DNA from: Asanoa ferruginea
GTDB taxonomy: Bacteria > Actinomycetota > Actinomycetes > Mycobacteriales > Micromonosporaceae
Assembly (NCBI RefSeq): GCF_003387075.1
Contig: NZ_QUMQ01000001.1
Coordinates: 6,262,001-6,326,000, forward strand
DNA length: 64,000 bases
Direction: 5' to 3'
Part shown: positions 10,755-64,000 of the stretch, in pieces
Layout: each line of letters starts with the position of its first letter
Position numbering within the stretch: the first letter of the stretch is position 1
Notes under the pieces: generated by a model
Database searches by the model: none
What the model saw: only the letters and a program-made list of their open reading frames with translations
What the model was told of the DNA's origin: nothing
Translations under genes and position numbers: made by a program

Positions 10755-12054
10755 GCCCAACGTCGACGTCGTGGTCGTCGGCGCCGGCCCGGCCGGCTCC
10801 GCCGCGGCGCTTGCCCTGGCACGGGCGGGCTGCTCGGTGGTGCTGCTGGAGCGCGGTCCCTACCCCGGCGCGAAGAACATGTATGGCGGCGTCGTCTACG
10901 GCCGGGTGCTCGACGACGTGCTTCCCCGGTGGTGGGAAGAAGTGCCGGTGCAGCGCTGGGTCACCCGGCGCTCGACGATGGTGCTGACCCCGACCCAGGC
11001 GCTGACCGTCGACTTCCGGTCGGAGGCGTGGGGCGCCGCACCGTACAACGGGATGACGGTCTATCGATCTGATTTTGACGGTTGGCTGGCCGGACACGCG
11101 GTCGCCGCCGGCGCCCAGTTGGTCACCTCGACGGTGGCGACCGGGCTGCTGCGCGACGCGGCCGGGCGGGTGGTCGGTGTCAAGACCGACCGGCCCGACG
11201 GCGACCTGCGCTGCAAGGTGGTCATCGCCTGCGACGGGGTCAACTCGTTCCTGGCCAAGGAGGCCGGGCTGCTGCCCCGGGCCGACGCCCATCACCACAC
11301 GCTCGGCGTGAAGGAGGTGCTGGCGCTGCCCCGCGAGGTGATCGACGACCGGTTCGGCCTGCGCGGCGACGAGGGCCTCGACATCGAGATGCTCGGGTGT
11401 ACGCGGGGAATCCCGGGCGGTGGCTTCCTCTACACCAACGGCGACACGGTCAGCGTCGGTGCGGTGCTGCAACTGCCGGGACTGGCCGCCTCGAAGGTGC
11501 GCCCGGAGGAGATCATCGCCGATATCAAGGCGCATCCGGCGATCGCGCCCTATTTGCGCGGGGCGACGCTCAAGGAGTATTCGGCGCACCTCATTCCGGA
11601 GGGCGGCTACGACGCCATGCCGGTGCTGCATCACGACGGGCTGCTGCTCGCCGGTGACGCGGCCGGGATGACGCTGGCGGCCGGGATCTGGCTCGAGGGG
11701 GTCAACTTCGCTCTGGGTTCCGGGCTCGCGGCGGGCCGGGCGGCGGCGCGGGCGGTCGCGGCCGGCGACACCACTCGCGCGGGGCTGGCGTCGTACCGTC
11801 GCGATCTGGAATCGACCTTCGTGCTCCGCGACCACAAGCGCCTGCGCGGCGCACCGGGGCTGGTGCTCTCCGACCGGGTGCAGCAGCGCTATCCGGGCCT
11901 GATCGCCGACTTCGTCGAGAGCGTGTTCGGCGTGACGAACCCGGCGCCGAAGCCGGGGTTCGTCCGCCTGTTGCGGCAATCGATGCGGCGACACGGCGTC
12001 AAGATGCGGCATCTCGTCGCCGACGGGATCCGCGGGGGAAGGGTGTTCCGATGA
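10747..12054 (+). CDS. fixC: FixC-like flavoprotein (ETF:quinone oxidoreductase)
   Basis: A 435-residue FAD enzyme of the FixC/ETF-QO type. It starts with the dinucleotide fold VVVVGAGPAGSAAALALARA; GAKNMYGGVVYG is the family-typical loop, and GLLLAGDAAGMTLAAG is the second FAD contact. FixC with FixX passes electrons from ETF to quinone or toward bifurcation. It overlaps etfA by 8 bp and fixX by 4 bp. There is no transmembrane helix; association with the membrane would be peripheral, as in other ETF-QO proteins. Confidence 0.9.
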   Translation: MSEPNVDVVVVGAGPAGSAAALALARAGCSVVLLERGPYPGAKNMYGGVVYGRVLDDVLPRWWEEVPVQRWVTRRSTMVLTPTQALTVDFRSEAWGAAPYNGMTVYRSDFDGWLAGHAVAAGAQLVTSTVATGLLRDAAGRVVGVKTDRPDGDLRCKVVIACDGVNSFLAKEAGLLPRADAHHHTLGVKEVLALPREVIDDRFGLRGDEGLDIEMLGCTRGIPGGGFLYTNGDTVSVGAVLQLPGLAASKVRPEEIIADIKAHPAIAPYLRGATLKEYSAHLIPEGGYDAMPVLHHDGLLLAGDAAGMTLAAGIWLEGVNFALGSGLAAGRAAARAVAAGDTTRAGLASYRRDLESTFVLRDHKRLRGAPGLVLSDRVQQRYPGLIADFVESVFGVTNPAPKPGFVRLLRQSMRRHGVKMRHLVADGIRGGRVFR

Positions 12055-12341
12055 GATACGGCGACGTCTCCTTCGAGGAGCGGATGGCCACCGTCGACTT
12101 CCGGGTCGGCGAGCGGCCCCACATCACCGTCGACTCCGACATCTGCCGCTCGTGCACGACCCAGGCCTGCGTGACGGCGTGTCCGGCGAACCTGTTCGCG
12201 CCGACCGCCGACGGTGGCATCCTGTTCAACTACGAGCAATGTTTCGAATGCGGCACCTGCTACATGGTGTGCAACGCGGAGGGCGCCTTGACCTGGACCT
12301 ACCCCGACGGTGGCGACGGCGTGGCGCTGCGGCATGGCTGA
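12051..12341 (+). CDS. fixX: FixX-like ferredoxin
   Basis: A 96-residue ferredoxin with eight cysteines in two groups: C32, C35, C40, C44 and C64, C67, C70, C74. FixX proteins supply the Fe-S part of an ETF:quinone oxidoreductase that is a single chain in eukaryotes. It overlaps fixC by 4 bp (ATGA) and the ETF beta gene by 8 bp. All ligands needed for at least one 4Fe-4S cluster are intact. Cytoplasmic, probably bound to the FixC-like protein. Confidence 0.9.
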   Translation: MRYGDVSFEERMATVDFRVGERPHITVDSDICRSCTTQACVTACPANLFAPTADGGILFNYEQCFECGTCYMVCNAEGALTWTYPDGGDGVALRHG

Positions 12342-60164: not shown

Positions 60165-61394
60165 GTGCCTGCCTCCTCCGCTTCGCTCTGGAGTGATCCT
60201 GACTTCCGCCGGCTCTGGGCCGGTCAGACCGCGTCGCAACTGGGCGAGCAGGCCACCCTGGTGGCGCTGCCGCTGATCGCCGTGCTCACCCTCGGCGCCC
60301 GGCCCGACCAGGTGGGCGCCCTGCGTGCGGTTGGCCAGGCGCCGCTGCTGCTGTTGCCGCTGTTCGTCGGCGCCTGGGTCGACCGCTGGCGCACCCGGAC
60401 CGTGATGGTGTTGGCCGACCTCGGCCGGGCGCTGGCGCTGACCGGCGCCGTCGTGGCCGCCTACGTCGGTGGTCTGGGCCTGCCGGCACTCGTGGTGATC
60501 GCGTTCGCCGTCGGCGGCCTGTCGGTGTTCTTCGACGTGGCCTACCAGGCCTCGGTGGTCCGGCTGTTCCGCCGGGACCAGTTGGCCCGGGCCAACAGCG
60601 CGATCGAGGGCAGCCGGTCCGGCGCCCAGATCGCCGGCCCCGCACTGGGCGGTGCGCTGGCATCGTCGTCGCTCGGCATCGCCGCCACCGCCCTGTTCTT
60701 CGCACTCTCGTTTCTGTGCATCCGCCGGATCCGCCCCGACGAGCCGGTCCCCACGCAGCGTCCACTTCGGATCGGGCAGCGGATCGGCGACGGTGTCCGC
60801 TTCGTGGCCGCTGATGCCGCGCTGCGCACGGTGTGCCTCGCGTCGGCGGCGTTCCAGTTCAGCCTCGCCGCCACGATGACCGCCTACCTGCTGTTCCTGC
60901 CGCGCGACCTGCACCTGTCCGGCGCCGCGGTTGGCCTGGTCCTGGCGGCGACCGGCCCGGGCGCCCTGCTCGGCTCCCTGCTGGCGGCCCGCCTACCGGC
61001 CCGGCTGGGCTACGGCCCGGTCCTGGTGGGAGCCGCGGCCATCGGCGACGGCGCATTCCTGATCGTGCCGACCCTGCACAGCGGGGCCGCGGCGACCGTG
61101 CCGTTGCTGGTGGCGGCCAACCTCGTCTTCGGTGCGTTAGGCCAACTCGTCAACGTCACGGTCATGGTCGTGCGCCAGGCCCTGACCCCGAACCAGCTGC
61201 AGGGCCGCGTGGCGGCGACGATCACGTTCGCCGGCATGGGCACGGCCCCGCTCGGATCGCTGCTGGGCGGCGTGCTGGCGACGCAGTGGGGCCCGCGCAC
61301 GAGCCTGGCGGTGACGGCCGCCGGGATGCTGCTCTCACCGCTGCTCATGGCGCTGTCGCCGCTCGCGCGGATCGGCCGGGATGTGTCGTCATAG
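60165..61394 (+). CDS. MFS transporter
   Basis: A 409-residue major facilitator protein with about 12 helices, opening LWSDPDFRRLWAGQTASQLG like the MFS_3 exporter group. Motif A-like loop: GAWVDRWRTRTVMV. GTG at 60165 follows AAGGAAT at 7-nt spacing; the longer ORF start adds a charged tail not seen in the family. It may export a small molecule, possibly the product of the peptide operon that starts 125 bp downstream. The 118-bp gap before it has a small AGGCCG-ATTC-CGGCCT hairpin and nothing else I can support. Confidence 0.88.
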   Translation: MPASSASLWSDPDFRRLWAGQTASQLGEQATLVALPLIAVLTLGARPDQVGALRAVGQAPLLLLPLFVGAWVDRWRTRTVMVLADLGRALALTGAVVAAYVGGLGLPALVVIAFAVGGLSVFFDVAYQASVVRLFRRDQLARANSAIEGSRSGAQIAGPALGGALASSSLGIAATALFFALSFLCIRRIRPDEPVPTQRPLRIGQRIGDGVRFVAADAALRTVCLASAAFQFSLAATMTAYLLFLPRDLHLSGAAVGLVLAATGPGALLGSLLAARLPARLGYGPVLVGAAAIGDGAFLIVPTLHSGAAATVPLLVAANLVFGALGQLVNVTVMVVRQALTPNQLQGRVAATITFAGMGTAPLGSLLGGVLATQWGPRTSLAVTAAGMLLSPLLMALSPLARIGRDVSS

Positions 61395-61519
61395 GAGGGT
61401 GATTGCTCAGCATCTGCCCAATGCCGGGTGGGCCGGCGGGATCGCGCGGCGAGCGGCGAGAATGCCGGAGGGTGCTGCCGCACCCGCAGCGAGTCGGCTG
61501 GCCGCAGGAGGGGGTCGCC

Positions 61520-62017
61520 ATGCCGGTCTTCAAGGTCCGCGATCTTATGATCAATCTGTTGCCCGAGGGTGGCGGGCCGTTGCCCCGCTGTCCGGGCGTC
61601 TCGTTGCCCAACTGTGCGGCCAACTCGTGCTTCAACGTCTCGGTCATCGGCTGCGGTGTCACCTGTCCCGCGATCACCCGGTGCACCCACGGCACGCTGA
61701 TCGCCGACACCTGCCCGGCGAGCTCCTGTTACAACTACACCTGCGAGGTCACCAACTTCAGCCGGGGCTGCGGCCAGGGATACACCTGCCTGATGCCGGG
61801 CGAGGGGATCGGCCAGGCCGAAGACCTGACCCTGCTCAAGCAGCAGCTCAGGTTGGCGCTCGAGCAGGTGGAGGCGCAGGAGGCGGCCCGCGACGAGGCC
61901 GAGCGGCCGCAGACGATCGAAGAGGTCGATCAGCTGACCGAGCGGCTCAACGACGCGCTCGACGAGCTGCGGCGCCGCCGGGTCGAGCTGTCGGAGCGCC
62001 CGGCCGACGGAGACTAG
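61520..62017 (+). CDS. Cys-rich peptide with coiled-coil tail, candidate RiPP precursor
   Basis: A 165-residue protein I do not recognise as a known family. It starts MPVFKVRDLMINLLPEGGG, a possible leader. Residues 24-90 hold 11 cysteines (24, 32, 37, 45, 49, 55, 65, 70, 75, 84, 90); six directly follow Ser or Thr. From about 98 on it is a charged helical coiled coil. There is no signal peptide or known metal motif. A strong AGGAGG (61506-61511) lies 8 nt before the ATG. It is first in an operon with a HopA1-like protein and a PqqD-kinase, which suggests it is the substrate they modify. Abundant Ser/Thr beside Cys would suit dehydration and lanthionine formation. A metal-binding or structural role is the alternative. 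Confidence 0.65.
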   Translation: MPVFKVRDLMINLLPEGGGPLPRCPGVSLPNCAANSCFNVSVIGCGVTCPAITRCTHGTLIADTCPASSCYNYTCEVTNFSRGCGQGYTCLMPGEGIGQAEDLTLLKQQLRLALEQVEAQEAARDEAERPQTIEEVDQLTERLNDALDELRRRRVELSERPADGD

Positions 62018-62022
62018 CCCCC

Positions 62023-63156
62023 GTGCCGGCTCCGGACCTGACCGCGGCCACCCTGCGCGCCAACCCCGCCTACGAGCTGGTGCCGTTCGCTCAGCTGCCA
62101 CCGGGCGAGCAGCGAGCCCTGCACGCGCTCACCCGCGACGCCGACTTCTACGGGATCCTGCGGCCCCGTGACGCGGCGAGCAGACTCGGCGTCAAGTCGG
62201 TGTGCCGCGAGACCGCGCTGCTGTTCGACACCCTGCGCGAGCCCGGCGGGTTGCCCGGATACCTGCGACCGGCCAGCGAGGAGGTCTGCGCGGAGCTGTG
62301 GCGGCTGCTGCTCGACGGCGTGCTGGAGCTGCGGGTCGACGACGGATACGTGTCCGGCCCGGCGGCGCACGGGATGGCCGCGGCTTCCGGCGATCCGCCG
62401 GCCACGGGCCGGATCGCGCGGCTGTCCGTCGCGGCCGTGCGCTACGGGCAGGCGCTCGAGCTCTCCAACACCCGCCGGTTGTCGGAGAAGCTGTATTCCT
62501 ACGGTCGGCAACCGCTGTCGCCACACTGGATTCGCACGCTCGGCGATCCCGACCTGGTCGCCCGCCACCTCGGCCTGCACCGCGGTGTGCCGCACCGGGA
62601 GTGGATAGCCGCGGCGGGTGGCACCGGCCCTGATCCCTGGCTGCGCTGGGCGCGGCGCGGTGCCCCGGCCCACGGTGCCGGCCTGGCCAAGCTCTACGTC
62701 AGCGTGGTCTGCGCCGACGTCGGCAGCGCCTTGCGGGTCACCGCGGCACTCGCCGCCGGTTCGTCCGCGGCATTCCTCAAGGTCGGCGGCGACCCGGCCG
62801 CGCTGCTGCGGCCCGACAAGCTCATGGTCTATTTCTGGAACCTCGACGACCTGCGCGAGTTCGCCTGTGCGCTGTCGGGTGAGCTGGCCGGGTGCGGCGT
62901 GCAGGGTGTGCCGTTCACGGCCGAACTGGCCGGTGACGGCCTGCTCTCGTGGGGGATGGACCCGCCGCCCGACGAGAGCGTGCCGGCCTGGCTCGGGCAG
63001 GAGAGCTGGCGGCTGTGGATCACCAACCGGCTGGCGGTCGCGCTGACCGGCGCCCGGGCGGCGGCCGAGCCGTGGCTGTTCGCTCTCGACCGGCTCCGCC
63101 TCGACGGGGTCGACACCGGGTCCTGGACCCCGATCGGCGCGGGCGCCGCCCAGTGA
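62023..63156 (+). CDS. HopA1-like (class V lanthipeptide LxmY/TvaD-type) protein
   Basis: A 377-residue protein. The C-terminal part resembles the T3SS effector HopA1 family: KLYVSVVCADVG, AAFLKVGGDPAALLRPDKLM (about 245-266) with the adjacent VYF, and VPFTAELAGDGLLSWGMDPP. In actinobacteria such proteins occur in class V lanthipeptide and thioamitide pathways, where with a phosphotransferase-type kinase they dehydrate Ser/Thr. HopA1-fold proteins are thought to act as the phospho-eliminating part. GTG at 62023 is 5 bp after the precursor stop, and its stop overlaps the kinase GTG. Assignment is by eye. Confidence 0.7.
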   Translation: MPAPDLTAATLRANPAYELVPFAQLPPGEQRALHALTRDADFYGILRPRDAASRLGVKSVCRETALLFDTLREPGGLPGYLRPASEEVCAELWRLLLDGVLELRVDDGYVSGPAAHGMAAASGDPPATGRIARLSVAAVRYGQALELSNTRRLSEKLYSYGRQPLSPHWIRTLGDPDLVARHLGLHRGVPHREWIAAAGGTGPDPWLRWARRGAPAHGAGLAKLYVSVVCADVGSALRVTAALAAGSSAAFLKVGGDPAALLRPDKLMVYFWNLDDLREFACALSGELAGCGVQGVPFTAELAGDGLLSWGMDPPPDESVPAWLGQESWRLWITNRLAVALTGARAAAEPWLFALDRLRLDGVDTGSWTPIGAGAAQ

Positions 63157-64000
63157 GCCTGCCACCCGAGTTGGTGCTGCCGGCCGACGTCCGACTCGTC
63201 CCGGTTGTCGAGCTGGCCGACGACCTGCGCGCTCAGCTCGACAGCGCGGAAGACGACTTCGTGTTGGTCCGGCCCCGCTCCCGGGCACCGTCCAAGGTGG
63301 TCAACGCACAGGCCGCCGAGCTGCTCGCCGGTTTCCGCGCACCGTCGTCGGTGGTCGACGCGGTCATCGGCTACAGCCGCGCGCACGGCACCGATCCGGA
63401 AGAGGATCTCGAGTCGGCCTTCCCGCTGATCAGCCAGCTGTTCGAGGCGCGGCTGCTGGTCGCGGCCGACGACGCCGACCGCGCCGGGGTCGCCGGCGTC
63501 TTCGAGCCCGGCCAACCGGTCGGCTCCTACACAGTGCTCGACCGGGTGCAGGCGCTCGAAGACACCGAGATCTACATCGCGAGGTCGGTAACCGACGACG
63601 TGGCGCTCAAGGTGTCGCGGTCGCCGGTCGACACACCACAGCCCGGCTTCGACCGCGAGGCGGCGGTGCTGCGGCACCTCGACGGCGAGGTCGCGCCGCG
63701 GCTGCTCGCCGACACGGCGCTCGACGGGCATCGCTGCCTGGTGACGTCGTGGTTCCCGGGCCGCCATGTGTCCACCGTGGCCGACGAGCTGCGCCGGCTC
63801 CCCGACGATCGCGTCGAGCTGGGGCGGCTGTGCGTCACGGTGCTCCGGGCCTACGCGCGGCTGCACCGGCGCGGCGTCGTGCACGGCGACGTGCACCCGC
63901 GCAACGTGCTGGTCGACCCGCTCGGTGAGGTCTGCGTCGTCGACTACGGGCTGGCCGGCTTCGCCTCGGCCGACACCGCGTTCGGCCCGCCGCCGCGGGG
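63153..64000 (+). CDS. PqqD-like domain fused to kinase, truncated by window end
   Basis: GTG at 63153 (GTGA overlap) opens a frame with no stop to the window end, 282 codons. Residues about 20-105 look like PqqD (RRE): KVVNAQAAELLAGFRAPSSV through a helical segment to FPLISQLFEARLLV. A kinase domain follows with VALKVS (Lys near 153), an Glu-containing FDREAAVLRHL helix, the catalytic loop HGDVHPRNVLVD (from 244) and VVDYGLA in the DFG position. HGDxHxxN is the form found in lanthipeptide and APH-type kinases. A C-terminal cyclase domain, if any, would be outside. It is the likely peptide-binding kinase for the precursor at 61520. Confidence 0.75.
   Translation, partial: MSLPPELVLPADVRLVPVVELADDLRAQLDSAEDDFVLVRPRSRAPSKVVNAQAAELLAGFRAPSSVVDAVIGYSRAHGTDPEEDLESAFPLISQLFEARLLVAADDADRAGVAGVFEPGQPVGSYTVLDRVQALEDTEIYIARSVTDDVALKVSRSPVDTPQPGFDREAAVLRHLDGEVAPRLLADTALDGHRCLVTSWFPGRHVSTVADELRRLPDDRVELGRLCVTVLRAYARLHRRGVVHGDVHPRNVLVDPLGEVCVVDYGLAGFASADTAFGPPPR

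Follow-up and report, generated by a model that had tools for sequence, protein, structure and literature searches.

A probable lanthipeptide-type pathway, pairing a stand-alone HopA1-type lyase with a predicted RRE-kinase-LanC protein, in Asanoa ferruginea and many other bacteria

Introduction

The closest described counterparts of the operon considered here are lanthipeptide synthetases (papers in PMC are cited throughout for the sections drawn on). In class V (CaoKY, LxmKY), a stand-alone HopA1/LanY-type lyase works with a stand-alone APH-type kinase, and the enzymes carry no identifiable recognition element (RRE) for ribosomally synthesized and post-translationally modified peptides (RiPPs); the same account, PMC10604976, finds no identifiable RRE in any class II-V enzyme. 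Class IV LanL proteins hold lyase, protein kinase and zinc LanC in one polypeptide that scores above the cut-off of model NF038150, with zinc ligands listed as CCH (PMC11251773), and class III LanKC proteins have a LanC-like domain without zinc ligands. The streptococcal class VI LanKCb is a single polypeptide with a kinase and truncated lyase and cyclase, associated with a short peptide (PMC10676316). We analysed a three-gene operon at the right end of a 64,000-nt stretch of Asanoa ferruginea DNA (the window; bases 6,262,001-6,326,000 of a 9.07 Mb single-contig genome). Its genes encode, in order and on one strand, a Cys-rich precursor, a HopA1-type lyase and an RRE-kinase-LanC protein.

We conclude that this operon quite probably specifies a lanthipeptide-type RiPP pathway whose architecture is distinct. 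The homologies, folds, active-site conservation, gene linkage and conservation of core Cys, Ser and Thr presented below are computed results; from these we infer the reactions, docking, ring pattern, export, maturation and function. The original prediction, made from the letters of the window, described an 11-Cys protein, a HopA1-like gene 5 bp further on, a kinase gene overlapping it by GTGA and an MFS gene 125 bp upstream, and this layout agrees with our coordinates:

61506-61514, + strand: ribosome binding site of the precursor gene, AGGAGGGGG, AGGAGG-type by sequence
61520-62017, + strand: precursor protein, 165 aa with 11 Cys, from ATG 61520 to TAG 62017
61529-61552, + strand: precursor N-terminal motif FKVRDLMI, a proposed leader strand, from motif conservation in precursors
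61589-61789, + strand: Cys/Ser/Thr-rich core of the precursor (residues 24-90), by sequence
61814-61993, + strand: conserved helical C-terminal segment of the precursor (residues 99-158), from a hidden Markov model (HMM; leave-one-out E 1.2e-15)
62023-63156, + strand: predicted HopA1/LanY-type phosphoSer/Thr lyase, 377 aa, from GTG 62023 (5 bp after the precursor stop) to TGA 63156, by profile and fold
62029-62340, + strand: RRE-like N-terminal domain of the lyase (residues 3-106), by hhalign against the kinase RRE (88.7%, E 2.5e-6)
62599-63153, + strand: lyase catalytic domain with K223, K253, R263 and Y270, by profile and residue conservation
63153-64000, + strand: 5′ part of the RRE-kinase-LanC gene, whose GTG at 63153 overlaps the lyase stop by four bases (GTGA common to both) and which extends past the window to ~65,481 (position 11481 of L009, the sequence reaching to the right of the window)
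63153-63476, + strand: RRE (PqqD-like) domain of the kinase-LanC protein, by profile and fold
63585-64000, + strand: start of the protein kinase domain, with motifs HGDVHPRN and DYG (Pfam PF00069, E 3.6e-11)

Comparison with described synthetases

Like the class V systems, the present set pairs a stand-alone HopA1-family lyase with a kinase; LxmY is its best fold match by E-value, and the K-R-Y spacing of the active site is kept. In contrast to class V, the kinase is of the protein-kinase type and fused to LanC, an RRE is present on the kinase and probably on the lyase, the lyase has Lys (K223) where CaoY has Arg187, the precursors are large and Cys-rich, the set occurs in many phyla, and no tailoring family recurs among 116 scanned neighbours. 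The class V relation originally proposed thus holds for the HopA1-type lyase and fails for the kinase, which is of the LanKC/LanL type with a zinc LanC rather than a stand-alone APH-type enzyme. The order of protein kinase and zinc LanC within one chain is that of class IV LanL, whereas here the lyase is a separate gene, an RRE takes its place in the kinase-LanC chain, and the zinc ligands are CCC. Retention of these ligands sets the LanC domain apart from class III, and the separate lyase gene, full-length LanC match and precursors of ~100-300 aa distinguish the set from class VI as two reviews describe it.

Also close are the L-CCC synthetases of a 2024 survey (PMC11251773), which likewise combine a lyase-type dehydratase with a Cys-Cys-Cys cyclase; its Table 1 places eight predicted lanthipeptides nearest to such synthetases, and these may overlap with the present family. 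The sections of that survey drawn on describe no RRE, split HopA1 lyase or precursor family of the present kind. In literature searches of open-licence PMC papers, outside which lie most subscription papers and preprints, we found no description of the three-gene set and no report of a Ser/Thr kinase-LanC or phosphoSer/Thr lyase that bears an RRE. As far as this search reaches, the set appears new in architecture and known in its type of chemistry.

The gene set recurs, closely linked, across phyla

When proteins were searched with the lyase, 60 other genomes near the window gave a single relative and five same-genus genomes gave none. With a two-row profile, two relatives emerged from 393 other genomes of the class. 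A four-sequence lyase alignment run against 84,980 species genomes yielded at least 45 loci (numbered with L below), a lower bound because the scan is pattern-based; one MarR-like match on the opposite strand in L053 was excluded before counting. A scan of genome contigs with the precursor alone returned no relative, and the lyase alignment was used instead; phages scanned with the lyase gave no match.

In 44 of the 45 loci the lyase is followed on the same strand by a match to the kinase-LanC profile, the contig ending first in L047. The gap between the two genes is -10 to 60 bp in 39/44 loci (start codons picked by hand), with large-gap exceptions in L020 (1,160 bp) and L061 (broken frames). 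Lyase and kinase-LanC distances are strongly correlated (Mantel r 0.93, 37 pairs, against at most 0.19 in 1000 permutations).

By record titles, the scanned loci span eight phyla, many of them as metagenome bins; those represented by isolates are Actinomycetota, Bacteroidota, Pseudomonadota and Chloroflexota. Two further loci, and with them a ninth phylum, come from plasmids of Paenibacillus peoriae (Bacillota) and Cupriavidus oxalaticus, so that the carriers include Acidobacteriota, Dyadobacter, Chloroflexota, a Nitrospira bin, a Paenibacillus plasmid and actinomycetes. In the annotation of the Paenibacillus plasmid, the genes appear as hypothetical proteins together with a LanC family protein. 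In the lyase tree the window clusters with two Acidobacteriaceae loci (support 95/90), while Actinomycetota and Pseudomonadota are scattered, a pattern that fits horizontal spread. One genome (G180, L062) also encodes a separate canonical PF17914 protein in addition to the set. Taken as a whole, the enzyme set is real and widely spread, and homology predicts that it makes thioether-linked peptides.

The lyase appears intermediate between LanY and LanKC lyases

Searched alone, the window lyase matches nothing in Pfam or NCBIfam. Among 47 homologues, six match PF17914 weakly (best E 1.3e-4) and three match RamC_N. In profile comparison by hhalign, the lyase family aligns with 16 actinomycete PF17914 domains at 96% (E 3.8e-9) and with 14 LanKC lyase domains at 83%. 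The PF17914 and LanKC domains are themselves hardly alike (5.9%), which makes the present lyase look intermediate between them.

The AlphaFold model of the lyase is confident (pLDDT 92, pTM 0.90), and its best Foldseek match in the PDB by E-value is LxmY of the LxmKY dehydratase (3.1e-7), followed by HopA1 (3.8e-7). Each of the 20 matches with E ≤ 0.001 is LxmY, a HopA1/OspF/SpvC-type lyase or effector, or a class III-type synthetase containing a lyase domain of this kind; a PDB sequence search with the lyase profile gave a chance match only. Profile and fold together bear out the HopA1-like assignment made at the outset.

Four candidate active-site residues, K223, K253, R263 and Y270, are each kept in 46 of 47 lyases, the exception being L061. 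K253, R263 and Y270 are spaced like K219, R229 and Y236 of CaoY, where mutation has been used to test K219 and R229 (PMC9486802). K223 aligns with CaoY Arg187, a position occupied by Lys in SpvC (residues from PMC9486802); the present lyase is thus more like SpvC and LanKC here.

The kinase is fused to a LanC domain with a conserved zinc site

The kinase-LanC alignment covers 38 of the 44 loci and the window piece, with L021, L025, L028, L042, L045, L061 and L015 excluded. The kinase Lys, Glu, HxD, Asn and Asp are invariant in all 39 proteins. All 36 proteins that have the LanC region keep its zinc ligands, Cys and Cys-Cys; the other three are the window kinase piece, L019 (contig end) and L059 (motifs lost). 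A LanC-like cyclase, which the original prediction had suggested seeking to the right of 64000, does lie there (PF05147, E 6.7e-23), in the same gene as the kinase and in a different reading frame, and this window LanC piece carries WCHG and LCCG. The CCG form is described as a mark of promiscuous LanMs such as ProcM (PMC10027976).

Of the kinase models, PF00069 fits the window protein best and matches 39/39 members; the APH model (PF01636) matches 36/39. The LanL model NF038150 also matches all 39 members (best E 2.9e-51), with scores far below its cut-off of 650 bits where bits are given (142 for the Catellatospora protein of L033; 71 and 75 for the window pieces).

In a Neoroseomonas locus (L059:10714-12669) the LanC motifs are lost and the precursor has a single core Cys, possibly a dehydration-only variant. 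A general coupling between loss of the LanC site and loss of core Cys fits L059 only. L061 also has one core Cys and keeps WCSG and LCCG, and the claim was therefore dropped.

A predicted RRE domain on the kinase and an RRE-like domain on the lyase

The first ~108 residues of the kinase-LanC proteins match a profile of 13 PqqD domains at 86% (17 domains were fetched and four excluded as their loci were cut). Control comparisons gave 0.9% for LanY domains, 0.7% for RamC_N domains and, against PqqD, 1.0% for the whole lyase. In the AlphaFold model of this domain (pLDDT 89) the three-strand, three-helix PqqD fold is present, and Foldseek matches it to PqqD, MccB, TbiB1 with its leader, TigE and MibB; the domain thus shares its fold with the RRE enzymes PqqD, MccB, TbiB1 and MibB. 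The PqqD-like N terminus anticipated on the kinase is therefore borne out by profile and by fold.

The lyase appears to carry a related domain, which the original prediction omitted. Residues 3-106 of the lyase align with the kinase RRE at 88.7% (E 2.5e-6), compared with at most 0.6% for eight column-shuffled controls and 0.2% for the rest of the lyase, and the Paenibacillus lyase matches the RRE HMM at E 0.007. On the Cupriavidus plasmid, an RRE-oxygenase gene (L115:7002-8075) and a complete RRE-kinase-LanC gene (L115:8041-10533) lie on opposite strands; the former encodes a fusion of an RRE (RRE HMM E 1.9e-36) with a 2OG-Fe(II) oxygenase domain (PF13640, E 2.7e-12). These similarities suggest that the RRE-like domain could be a docking module common to the lyase, the kinase-LanC protein and the Cupriavidus oxygenase.

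A precursor family with variable Cys-rich cores

An HMM iterated on its own matches collects 45 precursors in 39 loci, the window and L015 included. It finds a precursor in 37 of the 45 scanned loci, or 36 without L049, whose two precursors, at E 0.04 and 1.5e-3, miss the 1e-3 cut-off. The window precursor is recovered at E 1.2e-15 by a family HMM built without it, and leave-one-out scores are weak for L056 and L060 (E 0.035-0.047) and L026 (E 0.0026). Three further loci (L054, L057 and L058) have Cys-rich candidates missed by the HMM, and in L024 and L052 the set lies at a contig end. A Cys-rich neighbour, expected in relatives from the start, is therefore the rule in this sample, with three loci lacking one. 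The original prediction saw no resemblance of the precursor to known class V precursors; the window sequence alone returned nothing useful from Pfam or NCBIfam, and the precursor family had no convincing match there.

Precursors are about 100-300 aa long and share one plan: an N-terminal [FY]xxKDLxI-like (FxVKDLxI-like) motif, a Cys/Ser/Thr-rich core and a helical C-terminal segment. We could assign the motif in 43 of the 45 precursors, in nine of them manually. Cores contain 11% Cys and 17% Ser+Thr, compared with an average of 1.2% Cys for genes called in the loci, precursors counted in. At least four core Cys occur in 40/45 precursors and at least ten in 14/45, Ser+Thr equals or exceeds Cys in 44/45, and the largest core has 33 Cys (L019). 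The L015 precursor (L015:8674-9336) contains about ten 21-bp tandem repeats encoding ASCG units. In the Paenibacillus plasmid precursor (L114:5029-5781) a 213-bp repeat (3.2 copies, 96% matches) encodes the motif-core-helix unit three times in nearly identical form; since motif, core and helix are repeated together, the three parts behave as one module.

Dyadobacter shows the pattern that marks a RiPP precursor: the leader motif is identical in 7/7, the C-terminal segment near-identical and the core variable. Across six of these species, Cys is conserved in 8/8 core columns and Ser/Thr in 13/15, against 25/53 for other residues (p 1.9e-4).

We examined Cys-to-Ser/Thr spacing in 34 of the 45 precursors, leaving out near-duplicates (L018, L039, L040, L042, L044 and L045) and those with fewer than four core Cys. 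Ser/Thr at +4 from Cys is above the shuffle mean in 29/34 precursors and at +2 is below it in 32/34; in the window precursor, Ser/Thr stands four residues after 7 of 11 Cys. Enrichment at +1, +5 and -1 as well indicates that an i+4 ring would be a preference, not a rule. Known synthetases process mainly Ser/Thr-first motifs and only now and then Cys-first ones (PMC11251773).

Proposed pathway and alternatives

The proposed pathway keeps the core of the original prediction, in which a kinase and a HopA1-type lyase act on a Cys-rich substrate recognized through a PqqD-like domain; homology, fold and conservation agree with that scheme. The precursor would dock on the RREs through its N-terminal FxVKDLxI-like strand, its C-terminal helix or both. 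The kinase would phosphorylate Ser/Thr in the core, the lyase would eliminate phosphate to give dehydroalanine or dehydrobutyrine, and the LanC domain, with its Cys-Cys-Cys zinc site, would add core Cys, in many cases to a residue four positions further toward the C terminus (Cys-x3-Ser/Thr). The outcome would be a series of small thioether rings, a few in some products and perhaps over 20 in others.

More tentatively, and with rather less conviction than the pathway itself, we suggest an unrecognized lanthipeptide-type class spanning phyla. In it, sister RREs on the lyase, the kinase-cyclase and the Cupriavidus 2OG-Fe(II) oxygenase might gather all the enzymes on one precursor, and cores with up to ~30 Cys might become poly-thioether proteins whose rings are mainly Cys-first (Cys-x3-Ser/Thr), the reverse of the usual Ser/Thr-first order.

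If the proposed pathway is right, it would add a lanthipeptide-type synthetase architecture found from Acidobacteriota to a Paenibacillus plasmid and would put an RRE on a phosphorylation-dependent enzyme of this type, none having been identified before according to PMC10604976. It would also offer a testable rule, that of a single recognition module common to successive enzymes. A lyase intermediate between LanY and LanKC bears on the origin of class III-V synthetases, and a pair of enzymes whose substrates are long, variable and rich in repeats might be put to use in making poly-thioether proteins.

Several observations weigh against this interpretation. Three loci (L030, L047 and L050) show no visible precursor, the precursors of L059 and L061 have one core Cys each and that of L055 has two, and the L059 kinase-LanC protein is without LanC motifs. 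The core sits between motif and helix rather than at the C terminus. Adding a divergent seventh Dyadobacter (L046) lowers the conserved columns to 5/8 for Cys, 8/15 for Ser/Thr and 9/53 for others. Foldseek E-values for the kinase RRE are all above 0.001 (best 2.4e-3). The lyase RRE-like domain is read solely from its profile match to the kinase RRE, PqqD giving 1% with the whole lyase and 2% with its N terminus, and by eye the N-terminal model has a similar order of strands and helices with no clear second helix. By TM-score the lyase model is closer to HopA1 (0.43) than to LxmY (0.35). Among the 116 of 251 listed neighbour proteins scanned with Pfam, no family occurs more than three times at E ≤ 1e-5 (first 25 of 190 families); no protease or transporter family that could account for leader removal or export recurs among them. 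Finally, the kinase-LanC gene is interrupted in the window and in the L021, L025 and L061 copies.

This last point leads to the alternative that survives best, although we consider it unlikely: that the window copy is a decaying remnant without function in this strain, which would be compatible with the proposed pathway in relatives. The coding signal switches frame close to a run of A residues, L009 10263-10268 (window ~64,265); the kinase frame stops at L009 10,691 and the LanC frame ends at L009 11,481. In 38 of 44 relatives the gene is a single open reading frame of at least 750 aa, the exceptions being L019 and L028 (cut by contig ends), L021, L025 and L061 (interrupted) and L059 (open, lacking LanC motifs). 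Decay would agree with this frame change and with the missing lyase in all five same-genus genomes. On the other hand, both parts of the window gene retain a coding-type GC content at third codon positions and the motifs HGDVHPRN, WCHG and LCCG, and the break sits at a short A run, where a sequencing error is plausible. The window gene thus carries either a lesion or a sequencing error, and the interrupted frame calls product formation in this strain into question. The interruptions in other loci lie at different sites (L021:12876-12996, L025:13119 and L061:11003-13281; frame changes and one stop).

An ordinary class V or class IV cluster, with diverged LanK, LanY and LanC or a split LanL, is improbable. 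LxmY as closest lyase fold by E-value and the LanL model's matches to kinase and LanC in all 39 members are what such a cluster would show. The LanL scores far under the cut-off where bits are given, however, do not suit it, nor do an RRE on the kinase and probably on the lyase, given the class II-V enzymes described in PMC10604976, or a LanC-fused kinase that differs from the APH type. Reports of class V are moreover confined to actinobacteria (PMC12328550), whereas the present set occurs in nine phyla by record titles.

We think it very improbable that the precursor is dehydrated while its Cys serve disulfides, metal binding or thiol adducts and no rings form: CxxC patterns such as CGACSHAAT in L020 could bind metal or pair, and eukaryal LanC enzymes act intermolecularly (PMC9934072), but the zinc site is kept in all 36 aligned proteins with the LanC region, the Dyadobacter core conserves Ser/Thr as well as Cys, and Cys-to-Ser/Thr spacing is preferred.

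Genomic neighbourhood of the window operon

An MFS gene, described as an exporter in the original prediction, lies upstream of the precursor, its end at 61394 leaving a gap of 125 bp. Synteny led us to reject it as a dedicated exporter of the pathway: in two same-genus genomes (G001 and G003; L112 and L113) the MFS orthologue (~71% identity) and the GntR gene flank sigma-factor and NmrA-type genes (product names are our reading), and none of the three operon genes has a significant match there. In BLAST clusters of neighbours across the loci, no other gene family recurs beyond six loci.

Among the 57 genes that a GC-based caller predicts in the window, the precursor ranks second in Cys content; the most Cys-rich, a 96-aa open reading frame with 8 Cys at 12051-12341, may be a false call. 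On the 3′ side of the window kinase-LanC gene lies a convergent GntR gene, followed by apparent sugar or inositol catabolism genes (products again by our reading).

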